From Phycisphaerae bacterium (GTDB lineage: Bacteria > Planctomycetota > Phycisphaerae > Sedimentisphaerales > Anaerohalosphaeraceae), in the NCBI GenBank assembly GCA_012729675.1, contig JAAYCR010000082.1, positions 1 to 37,349 on the forward strand: a DNA stretch of 37,349 nucleotides, given 5' to 3'. This document shows, piece by piece, positions 540-37,349 of this stretch. The position numbers were made by a program, and so were the translations under genes. The notes below the pieces were generated by a model. It did not search any database and was not told the origin of the DNA. It saw only the letters and a list, made by a program, of their open reading frames with translations. Within the stretch, counting starts at the first letter, position 1, and every line of letters starts with the position of its first letter.

Positions 540-3278
540 ATGAAGACACAGATGCACACATTTTGTCGAGCATTGCTTGTTGGGGCAATGTACATGATCG
601 TATCCACCATTTCTTCAGGCGTTACCTATTATGTTGACGCGGCCAAGCCGGCCGGGGGCAACGGGTTGTCCTGGGCGACGGCCTTTAACACCCTTCAGGC
701 GGCGGTCAATGCGGCCAATCCTGTTTGGATGCAGTGCTATGCGCCGCTGGACACTATCTATGTCAAACAGGGGACTTATGTGTTGACCTCGACGCTGACC
801 CTGGGCAGCGGGGACGAGCTTTACGGCGGATTTCCGTCCTCGATCGCCAATCCCGTTTGGGCGGATCGCGACTGGAAAACGTATCCGACCGTCATTGACG
901 GGAATAACAGCGTTCGGTGCGTTACGATGAATCATTATTCGATGCTTGACGGGTTTACCATTCAGAACGGCAGCGCCAGTACGGGGGCGGGGATTTCCGT
1001 AGGCGCAACCCCGATAGACTGCGGCTTTTTGGGGTATATGTCGCCGATCGTTCAGAATTGCCGGATCCGGAACAACACGTCCAGCGGCAGCGCCGGGGGC
1101 CTTTTTGACGACGGGGCGGATGTACATATCCTGGACTGTGAGTTTTCGGGCAATTCGGCGGGAGGCAGCGGCGGGGCGATCTATTATAACAACAGCGGAA
1201 CCGAGATTTTGCGGTGCACCTTCTACAACAACGAAACGACCCCTCCGGGTTCGCTTGGCGGGGGTGCAACAGCCGGATTCGGACATAACGGTACGACCGG
1301 GGAATATGTAACCATCACCAACTGTCTGTTTTATGCAAACGTCTCAAACAGCTGGGGCGGCGCCATCTCAGGCAATCAGGTGTATCCGACGATCACCAAC
1401 TGTACGTTTGCCGACAATGAAGCATCCATAAACGGAGGAGCGTTTCACGGAAATGTGAATTCCGAAGCGCCGCGCATCCGCAACAGCATCTGCTGGGGCA
1501 ACAGCCCGGACGAACTGAATATCGTTACGGCCAGCACCTATCTGGACGTCAGCTACTGCGATATCCAGGGCGGCTGGACGGGAGCGGGATCCAACAACAT
1601 CAATCAAAACCCGCTGTTCAAAGGCGGTACGAACTATCGCCTGCAGATGGGCAGCCCGTGCATCGATACCGGCAGCGACGCCTACGCTCCCGACGACGAC
1701 CTGGACGGACAATCGCGTCCGCAGGACGGCAACAACGACGGAACCCCCCGCGCCGATATGGGGGCGTATGAGGCGGAATATACCAATGTCGATCTAAGCG
1801 TCCTAGCGATTACAAAGACGCCGTATTATCCGCGTGCGGGAGAATCGATGTCGGTGACGGTGTCGGTACGCAACTCGGGGACGACAGAGGCATCGTCGTT
1901 CTATCTTGACTGGTATGCGAATCGGGCTTCTGCGCCGGGGGTGAATCAATACGGCGATCAGTTTCAGAAGTTTTCCTCTCTGGCGGGGGGGACGACAACG
2001 TCCATGACCAAAAACTATACCTATTCGGCGCCGGGGGTGTATTCGATGTATGCTCAGGCGGATACGGACCAGCAGGTTGAAGAGACCAACGAGGGGAACA
2101 ATGTCCTGGGGCCGCAGAGCGTCAAGGTTATTGACGGCGATCTGTTGGATTTTGACTTGCGGGAAGAGTCGCACAACGCATCCCACTGGTTTGGCGGCGA
2201 CAACCGCCCCGCTTCCTCGCCGCGCAATGTGGGCGTCGGACAAAGCATCATTTTGGCACGCGAGGCCTGGGTTCAATCGGCTGGGTTTTATTTCGGAAAC
2301 CGGTTTGATTATATGAACAATCCTGACGGCGTCGGCCATGCAGTGCGTTTGTATCTGAATGTTCGAAACAGTTCCGGAACGATTTTGCGTACGGTCTATC
2401 GGGATTTGCCCGCTTCCTTTGAAGGCGGCTGGGTTATGTTTCCGTTCGGATCCAACCATCTCTGGCTGAATGCCGAACAAGAGTACATCTTCACGTGTTA
2501 TCTTTACAAAGGAGAAATCGTTGAACTGAAATCTTCCGCATATGGACGGACCGATGATCCCTGGCCGCTGAGCAGCGGTTATACATGTACCGTTGACAGC
2601 AGCCCGGCAGACATGACGAGCTGGGCGAACTGGGGAGCAAGTGCCTGGGACTTTAATTTCCGGATCACGGGTCAGTATGTCGAGCCGTACCCGGGCGATT
2701 TGAACAGCGACTGGACGGTCGGCATCAATGACGCGGCGATTCTGGCCGGCAACTGGCTGCGGGACGACTGCCTGATGCTCGACTGGTGCGACGGATGCGA
2801 TATGAACTGGAGCAAAAAAGTCGAATTGACAGACTTTGCGGTGCTGTCGGCCTACTGGAAAAAGAGTTTTTCGCCGCCGGCCTACAGTACTCTGGACAGG
2901 GATATCATCGCCAAAATTTACCAGTATGGACACTTGAGCAGCACCAGCATCGACGCCTCGGACGGCAGCGAATTCAAGCCGGGAACCTATTGTGTCTATC
3001 GCACTTCACAGGGACGACTGGGCAAGTTCATCGTGGAAAACTGGGAACCGGCCATGAGTTACCGGCTGACCATCGCCTGGGTAACCTACAACGCAAACGG
3101 GACGGTCTATTCTTCGGGATCGGGGCTTGTCATTAAGGGTTCGTATCATTGTGATCTGGATACAGGCGCAGAAACGCCAACCGGCGCCGATTTCCAGTGG
3201 AATACCCAAACAAGCTCAACTCGCTATTTGGTTCCGAAAAACAGCGCACTGTTCAAGTTGATTTATCGTGAACCATGA
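540..3278 (+). CDS. Secreted beta-helix protein with CARDB and internal dockerin
   Basis: A 912-aa exported protein. The ATG at 540 is preceded by GGGAG at 528-532, and the first ~28 residues form a signal peptide. Residues ~25-415 are a right-handed parallel beta-helix region with repeated 'NC.F..N....GGAI' rungs. It ends in a choice-of-anchor-Q-like stretch (SPCIDTG...GRADMGAYE type). Residues ~417-530 are a CARDB-like beta-sandwich. Residues ~534-715 are an unnamed domain shared with the next gene. Residues ~719-775 are two dockerin-like calcium-binding repeats, and ~804-912 form a C-terminal module also shared with the next gene. Beta-helix proteins of this kind often bind or cleave polysaccharides, but I see no catalytic motif, so adhesion or carbohydrate binding is inference. 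It is the first gene of a six-gene run. The dockerin is internal rather than terminal, which is unusual. Confidence 0.85.
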   Translation: MKTQMHTFCRALLVGAMYMIVSTISSGVTYYVDAAKPAGGNGLSWATAFNTLQAAVNAANPVWMQCYAPLDTIYVKQGTYVLTSTLTLGSGDELYGGFPSSIANPVWADRDWKTYPTVIDGNNSVRCVTMNHYSMLDGFTIQNGSASTGAGISVGATPIDCGFLGYMSPIVQNCRIRNNTSSGSAGGLFDDGADVHILDCEFSGNSAGGSGGAIYYNNSGTEILRCTFYNNETTPPGSLGGGATAGFGHNGTTGEYVTITNCLFYANVSNSWGGAISGNQVYPTITNCTFADNEASINGGAFHGNVNSEAPRIRNSICWGNSPDELNIVTASTYLDVSYCDIQGGWTGAGSNNINQNPLFKGGTNYRLQMGSPCIDTGSDAYAPDDDLDGQSRPQDGNNDGTPRADMGAYEAEYTNVDLSVLAITKTPYYPRAGESMSVTVSVRNSGTTEASSFYLDWYANRASAPGVNQYGDQFQKFSSLAGGTTTSMTKNYTYSAPGVYSMYAQADTDQQVEETNEGNNVLGPQSVKVIDGDLLDFDLREESHNASHWFGGDNRPASSPRNVGVGQSIILAREAWVQSAGFYFGNRFDYMNNPDGVGHAVRLYLNVRNSSGTILRTVYRDLPASFEGGWVMFPFGSNHLWLNAEQEYIFTCYLYKGEIVELKSSAYGRTDDPWPLSSGYTCTVDSSPADMTSWANWGASAWDFNFRITGQYVEPYPGDLNSDWTVGINDAAILAGNWLRDDCLMLDWCDGCDMNWSKKVELTDFAVLSAYWKKSFSPPAYSTLDRDIIAKIYQYGHLSSTSIDASDGSEFKPGTYCVYRTSQGRLGKFIVENWEPAMSYRLTIAWVTYNANGTVYSSGSGLVIKGSYHCDLDTGAETPTGADFQWNTQTSSTRYLVPKNSALFKLIYREP

Positions 3279-6300: not shown

Positions 6301-6847
6301 TGTCATCGACCTGGACGATTTTGCCTTTTTCGCCGCGCAATGGCTGCGAACCGATTGCGCCCTGCCCGGCTGGTGCGGCGGGACGGATATGGATTACAGC
6401 GGCGCGGTGGGACCCGGTGACCTGCTGGCCTTTTCGGCCGATTGGCTGCTGACTGGCTACGGCGGACTCAGCCGCACGGAGATCGCCGCCCTCGACGGCG
6501 AGCTGGCCGCCGCCAACATTAACGGCTCGGACGGACAGGAATTTATGCCCGGTACATGGTTTGTTTATAAAACCAGCAACGGCCGCTACGGGAAATTCAT
6601 CGTCGAAAAATGGGAACCGGCGGCCTCGAACCGGTTGACCATCGGCTGGACGACCTACAGCGCCAACGGGTTGATTTACTCAACCGGCGCCGGTTTGGCG
6701 ATTCGCGGCACCTTTTCCTGCGACCTGGACGAAGGCGCCGAAACCACAACCGACGCCGACTGGGAGTGGGTGCAGAAAAGCGGTTCGATTCGCTACCTGC
6801 ATCCGCGAAACGGCGCACTGTTCAAATTGATTCATCATGCACCCTGA
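3365..6847 (+). CDS. Large secreted propeller-like/FN3/CARDB/dockerin protein
   Basis: About 1160 aa. I place the start at the ATG at 3365 because GAAGGGAG lies 6 nt upstream; a TTG at 3359 in the same frame is too close to it. A signal peptide ends near residue 24. Residues ~25-470 contain repeats of the form 'DGxGGxxxxW...VxAQRVxxxGxxxW', probably beta-propeller-like. They are followed by a fibronectin type III domain (~478-575), an Ig-like 'PNGSEVLQVGNTYEITWS' domain (~580-677), CARDB (~678-795), a domain shared with the preceding gene (~800-967), two dockerin-like repeats (~972-1032) and the shared C-terminal module (~1052-1160). No enzymatic site is visible. Its C-terminal ~480 residues are colinear with those of the gene at 540, so the two share an origin by domain or gene duplication. 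Surface attachment or substrate binding is the likely role. Confidence 0.85.
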   Translation: MNAILFQRKAFCLIALTVACGVFAAEGDKLWDEDGLRITHMGTSTTAFEQVSDGLGGMFFIWEYGLGYDVRLQRVDTSGQYTGGMFPVPGPAWTDAVILSGGLSAGNPNLTTDGVNGVIAAWVEKTGTTSWVYKAQRVAYDGTTLWSPAVTLTAAQSTALPRPVLVSDGLGGAFVALQLGGVCHVTHVNSAGVQTGGLNGIGMPFALGAAAADGAGGVIAAGPDLAGVSLEVRAQRVLRSGSTLTAQWGANGAYLGYKPNRPCQYNAAYDRVDGIVVCWDTINTGDNPFVRAQRVSGSGTPLWEPDGVNLVGGVGGSWLYSAADICSDQLGGAFVVWTDWRNAPAGKSCDVYAQRVDADGDIVWTANGVKLSTLDAGAQRYPKICSDRVGGAIATWQDFWGFSENIRACRINAADGSLRWSAWVIMDDYNPPTPGQQQLHPKILFAGDGPIPRGAIISWNDERVTYGNYCQKLVVDMAFPPVEPTNLQAAILPPQIHLTWRDNADNETGYKVQYKRWYRYDITGEPTTWTDGPTLGVNCTSYQHDSATTNYYYKFRVCATNSYGDSAWSNEVSLLVLMMLYWIDIGYPNGSEVLQVGNTYEITWSTGMGISNVTIDYSTDGGSTWRTSPIAASTPNDGSYLWTVPNTLSDNCILRIRDAAAGSPYDLSDYPFRIVPPGPDLTILSLTCDQPSTAVQDTPLNVHCTVKNIGSLAADTFWLNFFPNQEQPPQPGEFGHPYTLISDGLAPGASYTWDFAHTYATPGPVTAYAKADTNDMITEADETNNIAGPLAMQIHEFEYIEDTHTHSHWFGGDDGTLTRNVGIGQSFTLPRSAYAAYAGFKFGQRFDYHDNPTGFGHAVTLVLNIRAANGAILKTVSTDVPAAFSGGWVCFNINMDMWAKQTYIFTCYLQNGQINELHNSALARNDNPWPDSQGFRALVNAAPYDMENWSNWQTYTGDLNVRLAGSYHDRSQADFVQNDVIDLDDFAFFAAQWLRTDCALPGWCGGTDMDYSGAVGPGDLLAFSADWLLTGYGGLSRTEIAALDGELAAANINGSDGQEFMPGTWFVYKTSNGRYGKFIVEKWEPAASNRLTIGWTTYSANGLIYSTGAGLAIRGTFSCDLDEGAETTTDADWEWVQKSGSIRYLHPRNGALFKLIHHAP

Positions 6848-30947: not shown

Positions 30948-32477
30948 ATGCTGGCACGCTTGTATTCGGTAACCCTGGAGGGGATTGACGGGATTTTGTG
31001 CGAGGTGGAGGTGGATGTCTCGCGCGGCGGGTTTGAAAAGCCGGTCATTGTCGGCCTGCCCGACGCGGCGGTCAAGGAAAGCATTGAGCGCGTCCGCAGC
31101 GCGGTCGTCAACTCCGGCTACAGCTTTCCCAACGTTCAGCCGCTGATCAACCTTGCCCCCGCCGACATCAAAAAGGCCGGCCCTGCCTTCGATTTGCCCA
31201 TCGCACTGGGGATTATGGTCTGCGCCGGCGGGCTGGTCAGCGAAAAAATCCGCGATTACGTCATCGCCGGCGAACTGGCGCTGGACGGCCGGGTGCGTCA
31301 GGTCAACGGCGTATTGAGCATGGCGATGACCGCCGCGACCAACGGCTACAAGGGCGTCATCGTGCCGCTGGACAATGCCGCCGAGGCCGCCGTCGTGGCC
31401 GGGCTGGAGGTCATTGCCGTCGGGTCGCTGGCGCAGGCGGCGGGGTTTCTGGCCGAGGCCATCGAGATCGAGCCGACCACGCTGGATATCGAGGCGCTGT
31501 TTGATCAGGCGGCGACCTACACCGTCGATTTTTCGGATGTCAAGGGGCAGGAAAGCGTCAAACGCGCCCTGACCATCGCCGCCGCGGGCGGGCATAACGT
31601 GATGATGATCGGCCCGCCCGGCGCGGGCAAGACGATGCTGGCCCAGCGGATGGCGACCATCCTGCCATCCCTGTCGCTGGCCGAGTCGCTGGAGACGACG
31701 CGGGTGTATTCCTCCGTCGGCCTTCTGGCCAAGGGGCAGGCGCTGGTCGCTACGCGCCCCGTGCGCACGCCGCACCACACCGCCTCCGGCCCGTCGCTGG
31801 TCGGCGGCGGCACGTACCCGCGCCCCGGCGAGTTGAGCCTGGCCCATCACGGCATCCTGTTTCTCGATGAATTCGCCGAGTTTCAGCGGCACATCCTCGA
31901 AATGATTCGCCAGCCGCTGGAGGAAGGGGCCGTCACCATCTCCCGCGCCAAGGGCACGCTGCGGTTTCCGGCCAATTTTATTATGATCGCGGCGATGAAC
32001 CCCTGCCCGTGCGGCTATTACGGCACGCACATCCGCCGCTGCAAGTGCACGCCCGTCCAGATCGAGCGGTATATGGGCAAGGTCTCCGGCCCGCTGCTGG
32101 ATCGCATCGACATCCACGTCGAGGTGCCGCCGGTGGCCTTCCGCCAGCTCCGCAGCAAAACCAACGGCCACGACTCGGCCCTGCTGCGGCAGATGGTGCA
32201 GTCCGCCCGCGCCCGCCAGGCCGCGCGCTTCGGCGACGGCCGCCTGATGACCAACGCCACGATGACGCATAAGGATGTCGAGGCGTTCTGCCGGCTGGAT
32301 GAGACGGGCGAACAGATGCTCAAGCACGCGATGGCCGAGTTCGCCCTCAGCGCCCGCGCCCACGACAAAATCTGCAAAGTCGCCCGCACCATCGCCGACC
32401 TCGAAGATGCCGACCGCGTCCTGCCCAACCACATCGCCGAAGCCGTCAGCTATCGAAGACTGGACAGAAAAATATAA
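30948..32477 (+). CDS. yifB: YifB/ComM family AAA+ ATPase
   Basis: 509 aa. AAGGAG at 30935-30940 fixes the start at the ATG at 30948 (a frame open from 30855 is too long). Residues ~1-165 are the ChlI-like N-terminal domain ('VGLPDAAVKESIERVRSAV' and 'NLAPADIKKAGPAFDLPIAL'). Residues ~190-395 are the Mg-chelatase-type AAA+ core with Walker A GPPGAGKT (~222-229) and Walker B 'ILFLDEF'. A Cys cluster 'NPCPCGYYG...CKC' likely binds zinc. The C-terminal helical domain ends 'AEAVSYRRLDRKI'. ComM promotes branch migration of recombining DNA during natural transformation. Its last 44 bp are repeated at 36107-36150. Confidence 0.95.
   Translation: MLARLYSVTLEGIDGILCEVEVDVSRGGFEKPVIVGLPDAAVKESIERVRSAVVNSGYSFPNVQPLINLAPADIKKAGPAFDLPIALGIMVCAGGLVSEKIRDYVIAGELALDGRVRQVNGVLSMAMTAATNGYKGVIVPLDNAAEAAVVAGLEVIAVGSLAQAAGFLAEAIEIEPTTLDIEALFDQAATYTVDFSDVKGQESVKRALTIAAAGGHNVMMIGPPGAGKTMLAQRMATILPSLSLAESLETTRVYSSVGLLAKGQALVATRPVRTPHHTASGPSLVGGGTYPRPGELSLAHHGILFLDEFAEFQRHILEMIRQPLEEGAVTISRAKGTLRFPANFIMIAAMNPCPCGYYGTHIRRCKCTPVQIERYMGKVSGPLLDRIDIHVEVPPVAFRQLRSKTNGHDSALLRQMVQSARARQAARFGDGRLMTNATMTHKDVEAFCRLDETGEQMLKHAMAEFALSARAHDKICKVARTIADLEDADRVLPNHIAEAVSYRRLDRKI
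32434..32477 (+). repeat. yifB 3'-end direct repeat, copy 1
   Basis: The last 44 bases of yifB including the stop. Copy 2 at 36107-36150 matches at 41 of 44 positions by my count, in the same orientation. The giant gene at 32546 lies between the two. Confidence 0.9.
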
Positions 32478-32545
32478 CAATGCTTATACCGTTCCGAAAC
32501 CAACGGTCAATGCAGCCGCCGGAGCAAACAGAAAGGGAGATTGCC

Positions 32546-35500
32546 ATGGGAAAGCAGAAAAAAACGATCATTTCTGACAGCGTAACCATGTTAATGGCCG
32601 GCATCCTGATAGTGACGGCCGCCGTTTTCGCTCAAGACGATAATTCAAATACCATTGTCTTTCAGGGGAAAGTGGTCAGCGAGATGGGAACTCCCGTAGT
32701 TGGGGCGCAAATTGATATTTATGACCTTCTGCAGCAAATGCAACATGTGCCCTATCCCATGCAGCATGCCGGAACAGCCACCACCGATGATCAGGGACGG
32801 TATTCCTTTTCACGCAATTCGCAATATTTTGAGGAACACGTTGTTTTTACGGTCGGCATCATACAGGCCAAAGGATATGCGGTGCACCGGTTTTATTATC
32901 CGGACGCGAAAATGAACTCGCCCATTGTTTTGTCTTCCAAGATTGCAGCCATTTCCGGACAGGTGGTTGACAGTCAGGGGCAACCGGTTGCAGATGCAAC
33001 CGTAGCGGCTTTTTTAAGCAGATCAAATAGACTTGCGACGGTGGATATTCCGGCACTTAAACGTCAAACCGATTCCGAGGGACGGTTTACTTTTGATGCC
33101 TTTGAGGTGAACTCCAAAATGGACTTTTTCGTGAAGAAAGAGGGTTATGCCGATTTATATACGTTTCGTACCGACGGCTCATGGCCCGAGGGCACGTTTT
33201 CTGTCGGCCAGCAGGATGTTCGGCTTCAATTGTTGAAGAAAGCGTCTTTGGCTGGAAAAATGATTCGGCGGGATACCGGTCAGGCGATAGCGGGGGAAAC
33301 CCTGTCGATACGTCGCCATCAGGGAACTGGCAACACGTCGCTCTATTCTTACAATATTATCAGCGGGAAAATTACGCCGTTCGGGTCTTATTCTCCTCAT
33401 GATACCCAGACATTCCAGACAGATGCCGAAGGATGCTTTTCTTTGGATTTCCTGACACCGGGAACGTACACACTCTTTCATCATAATTTCTTGAAAGGCC
33501 TCTTCTCCCCACAAATCAATGTAACACTCATAGAAGAGGGGCATCGGGATATTATGTTTGAAGTGGAAGCAGGTGTCAGTGTCACATTAAAGGGAGCAAT
33601 GGAAGACGGCTCACTTCCCGGACAGGATGTTGGGATTAGGCTTAAACGTCAGGCATCTGAGAACGACATCAAGTATTTGGCATTTTGGGATTTAGGGAAT
33701 AGTGAAAAGGCCGATGCGCAGGGGCGATTCCATTTCAGTGTGTTGCCGGGCCGTTATGAGGTATCCGTATCACCAAAGACCATGAAGTTGGCCGAGGATT
33801 ATCCGGTCATTGAAGTGCCGGCCGCGAACTATCCTTCCTTGCTGTTTATGGAAGAAAAAATAGAGCCTCCATTTGCGGGCGTTAAAGGGATATGCATAAA
33901 TCCCGAAGGGCTTCCCGTCGCCAATGCCAAGGTGTATTTACTGTCCGACCCGGAACAGGTTGTCACGACCGACGCTGAAGGGCATTTTGCGCTTGAGACC
34001 CGCCCGGAGAAGTGTAAAGAGCGCGTTATGTGGAAATACATGGAGAACAAAGAAAGATATGAGACAAACCCGTCTTTGTTCGAGTTGCGACTTGCCCAGG
34101 AATTCGGCCCTTCATACCAGAACCCGGATACCGATTGGATGAATATTGCTGCCTACCTTATTGCAGAAAGCTCGGAGGGTGTTGCACTGCATCAGTTTCG
34201 CACCCATCGAATAATTTTAAATCCCGTCGATCCGGTACAGGTCACACTGACGCTTCGGCCTGGATGCAGCATTTCAGGTCGGGCCGTTACCATAGATCAG
34301 CAGCCCGTGGAAGGCGCCAAGGTCGAAGTGATTATGACGGATGAGCACTTTCGGCGTGAAGTACACTACAAACAAACGGTTTCGGACGTCAATGGGGATT
34401 TTACCGTGTCCGGTCTCGCAATGAAAAATAATTACCAGGTGCTGGTTACAACCGGGGAGGGGGCGGTGCATATGAAGCACTTCAGCGCAGCCCTGACGCA
34501 GCATTCCGTTGCCAAAGGCGTCACACATGTGTTTACTCGAGAAACCGGCCTTTCGAATATGGAACATTTCGTTATGGACACAACAACCTATTCAGTATCG
34601 GGCGTTGTGGTCAACCACCTGGGATTACCCATTGAAAACGCGCTTGTGTTGCTCAGTGCCCCGGCGCAAGGCCTCAACAATATATCCTATTATACAGAAA
34701 AGGGTGGACGGTTTGAATTTGAAGGATTGTTAGCCGGCCCCGTTCAACTGGAATGCAAGTCGGGCGGCAGCGGATACCGCACTATTGCAACAAGTGCCGG
34801 CGCCCGGGATATCCGCATTGTTATCGAAAAAGGAGTCGCTGCCGAGGATATCGGCGAAAAGCCGGTCCCCGGGGCGGCCGTTGAAATGACCTTCGTGGAT
34901 GCGGCGACAGGGGAACCGCTCATGTTGCCTGAAGCCTACATCGGGATTAATCAGGAAAATGGAAATTCGTTTACAATGCCCCTCGATGATAAGGGCAGTA
35001 CGCGTTTTATGGTCAATCCCGGCGAGGTTCAATTTGATTTTTATGATTCCAGTGAACACTATGAGTCCTTGAAAAAGAAATTTAATGCGGCCGTGTATGA
35101 GGTATACCGTTTCCGGCACGAGGTCTCCATGACAGACACACAGAAAGCCCGGGTAGAGGCAGGGCCTGTTGTATATCCGGAAGTGCTCTCTGAGACGGAC
35201 AAGGTCTGGAATCTGAAGACATCAAGCGGCTCGTCTACGTCGCATAAATTGCTGGAGATTCTTGTAAAGGACCAGGAGATGAATGCGCCGGTTTGCGGCG
35301 CCGAAGTTTTAATTTCCTTCCGGAACGGCCAAGGGCGTTTTATCGGGACAACCAATGAAAAGGGTAAAATTATGTTTGCGGTATTCGACGATATCATTGA
35401 TTGCGTGATGACATCGATTAGATGCCCGGGGTATATTGAAAGTATTCCAAACCGGAAAATCTCAACTTTTTACTCTGAGCTCACAAAATCTACATTTTAT

Positions 35501-36088
35501 ATCGAGCAAGAAACAACACATATTCAGGTGACCGTGCTTGATAAGGAAGGAAACCCGGCGCCGAAAGTGTGGCTGTATCACGCTTACTTTAACGGCGATA
35601 AATGGGGCGTGTGGCTCAATTCATCCAACCAAGCTACCGATGAAAATGGACAAGTGTCGATGCGATGGATTTATGAGAAAGGACCGAATCCCCAAATAGA
35701 ACATTTCATATCCAGCTACTATATCCATGAGGGATTTATAGCTCAGGTTGTTACCGCAATGCCCGGCAGCGAGATTGTGCTGCATTTAATGCCTGCCGTT
35801 CAGGTTCAGGGCAGGATTGTGGATTCGGATGGAAGGCCGATTGCCCAGCAAAGTATTAATTTTGACTATCGAGTCAACGGCAAGACGATCGGAGGACCCT
35901 ATGCCAAGAGCAGGGATGACGGGACGTTTGGCCCACTCCCGATAGCGCCCGGTTTCGATTATCAAATATGCATCAGCAAAGATCAATGCGGCGTTTTCGG
36001 AGAGAATGAGTATATTTCAATAGATGACAGATATCCTGTCGTTCAGCTTCCGGACAGCATCTTTTATGGTAACAGGCCAAGGAATTAA
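32546..36088 (+). CDS. Giant secreted protein with carboxypeptidase-regulatory-like repeats
   Basis: About 1180 aa. GAAAGGGAG in front of the ATG at 32546 makes this a better start than the codon at 32480. A signal peptide (~8-30) ends near 'VFAQ'. The rest is a chain of at least seven beta-sandwich units of the CarboxypepD_reg type. Each opens with a pattern like 'GKVVSEMGTPVVGAQI', 'GQVVDSQGQPVADATV', 'GICINPEGLPVANAKV', 'GRAVTIDQQPVEGAKV', 'GVVVNHLGLPIENALV' or 'GRIVDSDGRPIAQQSI'. No peptidase motif is present, so it is probably a structural or adhesive surface protein. It is visibly more AT-rich than yifB and is bracketed by two copies of the yifB 3' end, which suggests later acquisition. 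Confidence 0.85.
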   Translation: MGKQKKTIISDSVTMLMAGILIVTAAVFAQDDNSNTIVFQGKVVSEMGTPVVGAQIDIYDLLQQMQHVPYPMQHAGTATTDDQGRYSFSRNSQYFEEHVVFTVGIIQAKGYAVHRFYYPDAKMNSPIVLSSKIAAISGQVVDSQGQPVADATVAAFLSRSNRLATVDIPALKRQTDSEGRFTFDAFEVNSKMDFFVKKEGYADLYTFRTDGSWPEGTFSVGQQDVRLQLLKKASLAGKMIRRDTGQAIAGETLSIRRHQGTGNTSLYSYNIISGKITPFGSYSPHDTQTFQTDAEGCFSLDFLTPGTYTLFHHNFLKGLFSPQINVTLIEEGHRDIMFEVEAGVSVTLKGAMEDGSLPGQDVGIRLKRQASENDIKYLAFWDLGNSEKADAQGRFHFSVLPGRYEVSVSPKTMKLAEDYPVIEVPAANYPSLLFMEEKIEPPFAGVKGICINPEGLPVANAKVYLLSDPEQVVTTDAEGHFALETRPEKCKERVMWKYMENKERYETNPSLFELRLAQEFGPSYQNPDTDWMNIAAYLIAESSEGVALHQFRTHRIILNPVDPVQVTLTLRPGCSISGRAVTIDQQPVEGAKVEVIMTDEHFRREVHYKQTVSDVNGDFTVSGLAMKNNYQVLVTTGEGAVHMKHFSAALTQHSVAKGVTHVFTRETGLSNMEHFVMDTTTYSVSGVVVNHLGLPIENALVLLSAPAQGLNNISYYTEKGGRFEFEGLLAGPVQLECKSGGSGYRTIATSAGARDIRIVIEKGVAAEDIGEKPVPGAAVEMTFVDAATGEPLMLPEAYIGINQENGNSFTMPLDDKGSTRFMVNPGEVQFDFYDSSEHYESLKKKFNAAVYEVYRFRHEVSMTDTQKARVEAGPVVYPEVLSETDKVWNLKTSSGSSTSHKLLEILVKDQEMNAPVCGAEVLISFRNGQGRFIGTTNEKGKIMFAVFDDIIDCVMTSIRCPGYIESIPNRKISTFYSELTKSTFYIEQETTHIQVTVLDKEGNPAPKVWLYHAYFNGDKWGVWLNSSNQATDENGQVSMRWIYEKGPNPQIEHFISSYYIHEGFIAQVVTAMPGSEIVLHLMPAVQVQGRIVDSDGRPIAQQSINFDYRVNGKTIGGPYAKSRDDGTFGPLPIAPGFDYQICISKDQCGVFGENEYISIDDRYPVVQLPDSIFYGNRPRN

Positions 36089-36106
36089 AGAGCAGTAAGA
36101 AAATAT

Positions 36107-36150
36107 TCGCCGAAGCCGTCAGCTACCGAAGACTGGACAGAAAGACATAA
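36107..36150 (+). repeat. yifB 3'-end direct repeat, copy 2
   Basis: It reads as the last codons of a yifB-like gene with its own TAA (AEAVSYRRLDRKT, then stop). Differences from copy 1: TAT to TAC and AAA to AAG (both silent), and ATA to ACA. There is no yifB sequence upstream of it, so it is a detached gene end. Confidence 0.88.
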
Positions 36151-36192: not shown

Positions 36193-36374
36193 GGTGTAAA
36201 TATGCACAATCGACAGCAACACATGTGTTCGGCAGCATCGCACCCACAAGCTCCGCTTGAAGGTGCCACCCGTCGATACGCTGCAGGAGAACAGTATTTG
36301 ATGGAACCGGCGCAAGTTCTTCGGTATCACCAACAAAGATGAATTGATAACAGTCAAAAGAAAAGGAATGCAAA

Positions 36375-36800
36375 ATGTTTGACAGGCCCATGAGCAAATC
36401 TGAATTGCTGCTGGTTGTCTTATTGCAGGGTTTCATTGTATTTAATTGTTACATCGTATTTAAGCCAAGAGAAAACCCTGTTGATCCTGAAATCATTTTC
36501 GAGTATTATTTTGTCCAGCGCATACAACAGATCACACAAGAACATATAGAAAAGGCGGAATTTCTATCACAGAATGGACAGCAGAGGGAAGCAGCGCTGT
36601 TACTGTTTCAAGTCGCGGCAGCCGAAGATATCTTGTATCCAAAACGACAGAGGATATATGAAGGCAAGCCGACGTTAACGGAAAAAAAAGCCCTTCGACA
36701 ATATGAAGCAGGCAGCAAGGAGAAAGAGCAGTATATCCAAGTGCTTAAATGGAAATATCCGGAATGGGACGAACGTGACGGGCGGCTTCTGTTGCAATGA
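36375..36800 (+). CDS. Small membrane-anchored protein, unknown
   Basis: 141 aa. AAAAGG lies ahead of the ATG at 36375. Residues ~8-30 form one membrane segment (ELLLVVLLQGFIVFNCYIVF). The rest (~40-141) is charged and largely helical, with a possible TPR-like stretch 'HIEKAEFLSQNGQQREAALL', where size and spacing suit one helical hairpin. I know no family. It is AT-richer than the core genes and belongs to the accessory tail downstream of the yifB repeat. Confidence 0.6.
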   Translation: MFDRPMSKSELLLVVLLQGFIVFNCYIVFKPRENPVDPEIIFEYYFVQRIQQITQEHIEKAEFLSQNGQQREAALLLFQVAAAEDILYPKRQRIYEGKPTLTEKKALRQYEAGSKEKEQYIQVLKWKYPEWDERDGRLLLQ

Positions 36801-36950: not shown

Positions 36951-36971
36951 TTAACCATGCGAGAAGAAAAC

Positions 36972-37244
36972 ATGAAGGTTCTGTTAAAGATAATTACAGT
37001 AGTATTAACTATCATCTTAATCGGATGCAAAAGCGAGGAAGAGGGAAATGAAATCATAACGTGGTATATGATGCCGCCGCAAACATACAGGCACGTCGAG
37101 GAGAAACAGACGGATCAAGTGCTTCAGTGGTTGCAGGGCGTCCCTACAACACGGCATTTCTTTTCACTCGCCCAGATCAAAAGTCCCTATACCTTTGATG
37201 AGTGGGCCGAAAAGGGGAAGGATATCACTACTGTCCGGTTATAA
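36972..37244 (+). CDS. Small lipoprotein, unknown
   Basis: 90 aa from the ATG at 36972 (an in-frame ATG at 36957 is possible). A lipoprotein signal (MKVLLKIITVVLTIILIGC) has the lipidated Cys at 19, followed by acidic SEEEG. The mature ~70 residues contain aromatic and charged residues and no motif I know ('YMMPPQTYRHVEEK', 'YTFDEWAEKG'). It is the last gene in the window; the ~105 bases after it show nothing I can name. Confidence 0.6.
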   Translation: MKVLLKIITVVLTIILIGCKSEEEGNEIITWYMMPPQTYRHVEEKQTDQVLQWLQGVPTTRHFFSLAQIKSPYTFDEWAEKGKDITTVRL

Positions 37245-37349
37245 GTTGAATAATAACAATTGGTTATCATAATCGCTCTTTTGTGTTTTGTCGAACTCTT
37301 GTGAAAACGCTTCCGAAATGGGTGTTTTCTCGAAAATCGACACACTGGC

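Follow-up and report, generated by a model that had tools for sequence, protein, structure and literature searches.

Integrase-encoding genomic islands insert at the 3' end of a gene, which the element rebuilds, and carry direct repeats on both sides. AbaR islands are found in comM of Acinetobacter. Mg-chelatase/ATP-dependent-protease genes are the targets of 12.4% of the predicted site-specific large serine recombinases (PMC10083194), and phage WO also targets the Mg-chelatase (yifB/comM) gene (PMC9203015). In 'insertion with long target duplication' (Nobusato et al. 2000), as far as it is described in PMC1643837 and PMC3031569, accessory genes, often those of restriction-modification (R-M) systems, come to lie between long, variable direct repeats without a transposase, the repeats being copies of the host's own target. 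For T6SS effector arrays including Rhs, a displacement of 3' ends with one-sided homology has been proposed (homology-facilitated illegitimate recombination; PMC5361080), in which the incoming DNA is anchored through conserved sequence upstream, its 3' part takes the place of the resident one, and superseded parts stay downstream, sometimes several of them. A literature search found no publication tying yifB to an integration site and a genomic island.

The window considered here is a stretch of 37,349 nucleotides that makes up an entire contig, ending at 37349 where the view stops, from an uncultured member of the Phycisphaerae whose nearest named relatives are the metagenome-assembled genomes SpSt-1223 and CSSed162cmA_150. 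In it, a large secreted protein is encoded by a foreign gene that was inserted exactly at the end of yifB; this end was rebuilt and the old one pushed 3.7 kb downstream. The features of the locus are as follows.

30948..32477, + strand: yifB (comM-like), encoding a Mg-chelatase-like AAA ATPase of 509 aa (TIGR00368, E 5e-176; PF01078, PF13541, PF13335); the host gene, which received the insertion at its 3' end.
32434..32477, + strand: C1, the yifB 3' end now in use, part of the direct repeat, with TAT and AAA against TAC and AAG in congeners; probably incoming with the insert, starting roughly at the crossover block.
32434..32452, + strand: block of 19 nt, TCGCCGAAGCCGTCAGCTA, equal in C1 and C2 (identical run -43 to -25; partner at 36107-36125); likely crossover zone.
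32478..36106, + strand: inserted DNA (cargo) of 3.6 kb, AT-richer than its surroundings, absent behind yifB in the congeners and the other loci fetched, and without a recombinase or transposase gene.
32480..36088, + strand: cargo gene for a large secreted protein with repeated carboxypeptidase-regulatory-like/transthyretin-like domains (PF13620, E 7e-50, three stretches above threshold).
36107..36150, + strand: C2, the displaced, probably native yifB 3' end; a relic 18 nt past the cargo stop codon (41/44 to C1; 38/42 to the congener locus L099).

As the preliminary description had reported, the last 44 nt of yifB including the stop codon (C1) recur in direct orientation 3673 nt further on, with 41 of 44 positions equal and two of the three differences silent (TAT/TAC and AAA/AAG; the third, ATA/ACA, exchanges Ile for Thr). 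It had also considered a short repeat scattered over the genome; the whole 2.8-Mb assembly contains the two copies only, against none of a reversed control pattern, and the sequence is therefore not a dispersed repeat. A chance origin is ruled out since shuffled sequence yields no such repeat (expectation 0). An assembly artefact is unlikely because the longest exact run shared by C1 and C2 is 19 nt and the same design is found in nine other assemblies, some of them with contigs of 91-343 kb.

A single ORF lies between C1 and C2, with 1202 codons from the first ATG and 1180 from the ATG at 32546, the latter being the probable start of the gene as judged from a preceding GGGAG-like site and a signal-peptide-like stretch that follows. 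The insert has a GC content of 48.8% versus 57.4% for the window up to yifB, in agreement with the one AT-richer gene of about 1180 codons described before. The cargo protein has no PADLOC match, no near copy elsewhere in the genome of the window and no relative on the viral contigs, and its homologues in family members reside at other loci (G048, 49%; G016, 35%; G011, 33%). The homologue in G048 is split into two reading frames and is surrounded by a 40-nt direct repeat (L085, 666-705 and 4751-4790); this is a low-copy intergenic repeat beside a run of N, suggestive but set aside. Behind C2 the window holds two short orphan ORFs of 141 aa (36375-36800) and 95 aa (36957-37244, with a lipoprotein-like start) without a family match. 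Their DNA has a GC content of only 43.7%, and they are possibly further accessory DNA of the same hot spot, cut by the contig end.

SpSt-1223 and CSSed162cmA_150, which belong to the same genus, each have a single yifB end followed by other DNA: in one of them a DUF4160 gene, another small ORF and a Y1-transposase-like gene, in the other an intergenic repeat. Neither has the gene order of the window minus the second copy, and the window cargo is absent behind yifB in these congeners as in every other yifB locus fetched. Among 39 family genomes, two copies of the end are found by pattern in the genome of the window only. The common unoccupied arrangement is yifB followed by STAS and rnc; among the 48 yifB loci where STAS or rnc was found, STAS lies within 300 nt of the yifB stop codon in 24 and 0.4-9.4 kb off in the rest.

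The arrangement recurs. Second yifB 3' ends lie downstream in direct orientation in nine further Phycisphaerae genomes (L108, L144, L158, L165, L188, L201, L287, L294 and L302), the last three from other orders of the class, and, as far as they are named, all inserts come from draft or metagenome-derived assemblies. The initial set of 80 yifB loci gave four more second copies and the rest of the order two more. At the level of the order 7 of 137 yifB loci carry a second end, which is a lower bound because many loci have short downstream contigs. The second copies start between -37 and -298 nt (-81, -108, -196 and -298 among them) and end between -4 and about +22 to +30 of the stop codon. The two copies are 70-78% identical in several cases; in L165 they are 95% identical over 303 nt. 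The inserts measure 0.4-7 kb, their cargo is AT-richer than the upstream flank in six of seven, and the last cargo gene of the window, L144, L158 and L188 ends about 20 nt or less from C2, or inside it.

Where they could be read, the cargos are mutually unrelated and have no gene in common. L108 contains three membrane-protein-like paralogues and HTH_34, L144 two M16 peptidases, L158 DUF3795 and L165 DUF1353. L188 contains a complete DraIII-type R-M system, composed of an N6-methylase, a DraIII-type endonuclease and a control protein, while L201 contains an ECF sigma factor, FecR and a carboxypeptidase-regulatory-like protein. L188 and L201 are from two species of one genus and share the native gene behind C2 (897 and 899 aa, 86% identical), preceded by the R-M system in L188 and by the sigma/FecR operon in L201. 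The STAS-rnc pair of L144 sits behind C2. Different cargo between two copies and single-copy sites in close relatives are what an insertion that rebuilt the yifB end had been expected to leave, and the nine further genomes bear out the suggestion that this end is a hot spot for accessory genes.

L287 and L294 contain two relics apiece, some of them fused to a fragment of the P-loop region; L302 contains one. The relics of L287 (6067-6197 and 7333-7451 on the yifB-sense strand) carry the same internal yifB deletion, a P-loop fragment (-863 to -806) being fused directly to the last 37 nt; a similar pair of P-loop and end, 97 nt apart, is found at 3871-4086 in L294. Matches in L229 and L317 were too weak to count, and the match in L282, 10 kb downstream, is an internal yifB piece only. 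No such hot spot is seen at yifB of E. coli, with 5,382 places among 5,375 genomes; MY1-8, the one example with two places that was examined, has an IS256-family element directly behind yifB.

These loci pinpoint one chromosomal address where planctomycetes repeatedly gain accessory genes without breaking the host gene. An R-M system, peptidases, secreted proteins and a sigma-factor operon have been gained there, and every event leaves a readable scar. Since an occupied site is distinguishable from an unoccupied one, how bacteria acquire single genes with no mobile element in view can be put to the test at one locus. The sites are also further evidence that yifB/comM attracts insertions to an unusual degree.

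The question of which end is native is answered most clearly by L158 (genome G160). Its C2 ends in AAATTAGACAGGGCGATGTAA, exactly as in the congener L162, and matches four family members at 35-37 of 42 positions. Its C1 ends in AAGCTTGACAGGAGTCTGTAA and matches two congeners at 30 of 42 positions and a member of another family at 35 of 42. The identity of L158 yifB to its own family is higher upstream and drops to 63-74% in the last 60 nt, against a background of 63-65%, with the drop spanning the last 60-90 nt. L158 thus has a hybrid anchor gene with a native 5' part and a foreign 3' part. C2 is hence the native end and C1 the incoming one: the yifB end was rebuilt by DNA from outside, and the former end was displaced. 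The window gives a hint of the same polarity, as its C2 has TAC and AAG like the congeners and its C1 has TAT and AAA; against L099, C2 scores 38/42 and C1 37/42. These two silent positions weakly suggest that C2 is native and C1 incoming here too.

It is proposed, with a probability of roughly 0.6, that in the Phycisphaerae an insertion hot spot lies behind yifB, at which DNA bearing a yifB end recombined with the resident end and displaced it. The incoming DNA would be made up of a yifB 3' end with accessory genes behind it and would recombine with the resident yifB near its 3' end, the resident end being pushed downstream to decay there as C2. yifB would stay intact because the incoming DNA supplies its new last 40-300 nt. 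The most likely overall mode is an integrase-less, homology-anchored capture, in which recombination would be anchored at the conserved yifB end rather than be site-specific, and may proceed by a single crossover with a circle or by a homologous event on one side and an illegitimate one on the other. This is comparable to insertion with long target duplication and to the displacement described for Rhs/T6SS loci, the latter in the anchoring upstream sequence, the replaced 3' part and the old parts left downstream (two in L287 and L294). It differs from the Rhs/T6SS case in that the host gene encodes a conserved housekeeping ATPase, which the event leaves essentially as it was, and the gain is a separate cargo gene and not a toxin tip.

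The preliminary description had offered two pictures, an integrative element at a gene 3' end and recombination between two yifB-like genes, of which the second comes closer to the best explanation. Of the first, the insertion, the rebuilt end with its direct repeat at both ends and the lack of an integrase stand, whereas a classical element is not borne out: the inserts are of 0.4-7 kb only, they show no integrase gene (Pfam on the main cargo ORFs and motif scan) and the repeat varies in length. Behind 177 yifB loci, over as much as 10 kb, a motif scan found no tyrosine-integrase motif. Of these, the 137 loci of the order were scanned for tyrosine and serine recombinases and the 40 class loci for tyrosine recombinases only; such scans are less sensitive than HMMs, and the main cargo ORFs were also checked by Pfam. 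The single serine-recombinase match in the 137 order loci is the sigma factor of L201, and a recombinase motif match of 161 aa in L289 looked spurious.

The preference for yifB was assessed against the longest ORFs of these loci and 646 kb of stretches from the genome of the window. Among about 2,060 ORFs with downstream sequence, yifB alone has a downstream duplicate of its 3' end other than a tandem paralogue. With the discovery window left out this amounts to 8 of about 165 yifB genes versus 0 of about 1,890 other ORFs (Fisher P about 1e-9), a control that is unmatched for conservation and somewhat smaller than its number since some of its ORFs are certainly no real genes. All other control matches came from in-frame tandem paralogues, except one from a frameshifted repeat protein. 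A 63-nt direct repeat in the window (3216-3278 and 6785-6847) at two successive gene 3' ends is the C-terminus common to two tandem paralogues with CARDB domains (44% identical over 497 aa); tandem paralogy accounts for that repeat and fails for the yifB copies. Within yifB the first 300 nt give no matches and the last 300 nt match in nine loci at E<1e-6. Mid-yifB matches are real in L282, L287 and L294 only; rows at 100% that stem from truncated loci are artefacts of the coordinates.

This preference also counts against homologous capture, under which other conserved genes would be expected as targets; none was seen. Likewise, the crossover zone is nearly common to the window, L144, L188 and L158 at -43 to -19. 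The identity blocks start at -37 in L144, -43 in L158 and -40 in L188, and a repeat start within 6 nt in three of four cases looks more site-specific than random homology. The blocks of 7-19 nt are also short for RecA recombination. A trans-acting site-specific system is possible in view of the yifB preference and the clustered blocks. The inserts could then be non-autonomous site-specific cassettes, each with its own copy of the yifB end as attachment site and served by a recombinase in trans, a reading that is considerably less probable than displacement by homology. It would fit the replacement of the end at the stop codon, the strong preference for yifB, the overlap of the crossover blocks in the best-preserved cases and the compact cargo with its last gene close to or inside C2. 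However, repeats also begin at -81, -108, -196 and -298, several pairs of copies have diverged to 70-78% identity, the cargos share no gene, tyrosine-integrase motifs are missing from the scanned regions and IMG/VR viral contigs contain no yifB end of this pattern. That the Phycisphaerae harbour an unrecognised family of such small integrase-less cassettes, for which the trans-acting recombinase rebuilds the end each time, is doubtful.

A tandem duplication of the yifB end with neighbouring DNA, or an insertion that duplicated the host's own target, with later divergence of the copies, is improbable. The near-identical copies of L165 are as expected from self-duplication, and R-M genes, of which L188 has a complete set, are known to insert with long target duplication (PMC1643837, PMC3031569). 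Long, variable direct repeats without a transposase and a single-copy site in relatives are found here as well. The cargo, however, is unduplicated, with no near copy in the genome of the window, relatives lack the tested cargo genes behind their yifB, and the two ends of L158 come from different lineages. From insertion with long target duplication, whose repeats copy the host's target, the present cases differ in that one gene end recurs as the site, the repeat stops at the stop codon, one copy in L158 is foreign and the cargo is mostly not R-M.

That the second ends are repair scars of large-serine-recombinase insertions, in which yifB was broken at codon ~350 and restored from incoming DNA with the old end left behind, is very improbable, since the displaced ends start at -37 to -298 and the recombinase site lies near -480, and since the inserts lack recombinase genes. 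In its favour, serine-recombinase elements lie next to the halves of a yifB split at the NPCPCG motif in G079, G135 and probably G156 and G157, Mg-chelatase/ATP-dependent-protease genes are a leading target of such recombinases (PMC10083194) and the choice of yifB would be accounted for. Elements of this kind and AbaR favour the same host gene as the displacement proposed here, but they disrupt it internally and encode their own recombinase or transposase, whereas yifB stays whole. The interruptions at codon ~350 occur in other members of the order (L230, 2378-4335; L235, 4479-7014; L233, 1118-2621; L234, 1184-2684) and do not coincide with the 3'-end scars. Large serine recombinase genes with Resolvase and Recombinase domains adjoin the break in L230, which also has a TrwB/HerA-like ATPase beside it, and in L235; at the break of L233 and of L234 lies a reverse-strand ORF, similar in the two. 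A serine recombinase gene of the type seen beside interrupted yifB is absent from the 3'-end sites of the window and its order.

Behind C2, at 36241-36271, the window contains a 31-nt palindromic repeat, CACCCACAAGCTCCGCTTGAAGGTGCCACCC. It has 19 genomic copies, is present in both congeners too, in one of them likewise behind yifB, and, being dispersed, says little about which copy of the yifB end is native. The Y1-transposase-like gene of one congener lies near two copies of this palindrome, and together they look like a REP/RAYT system.
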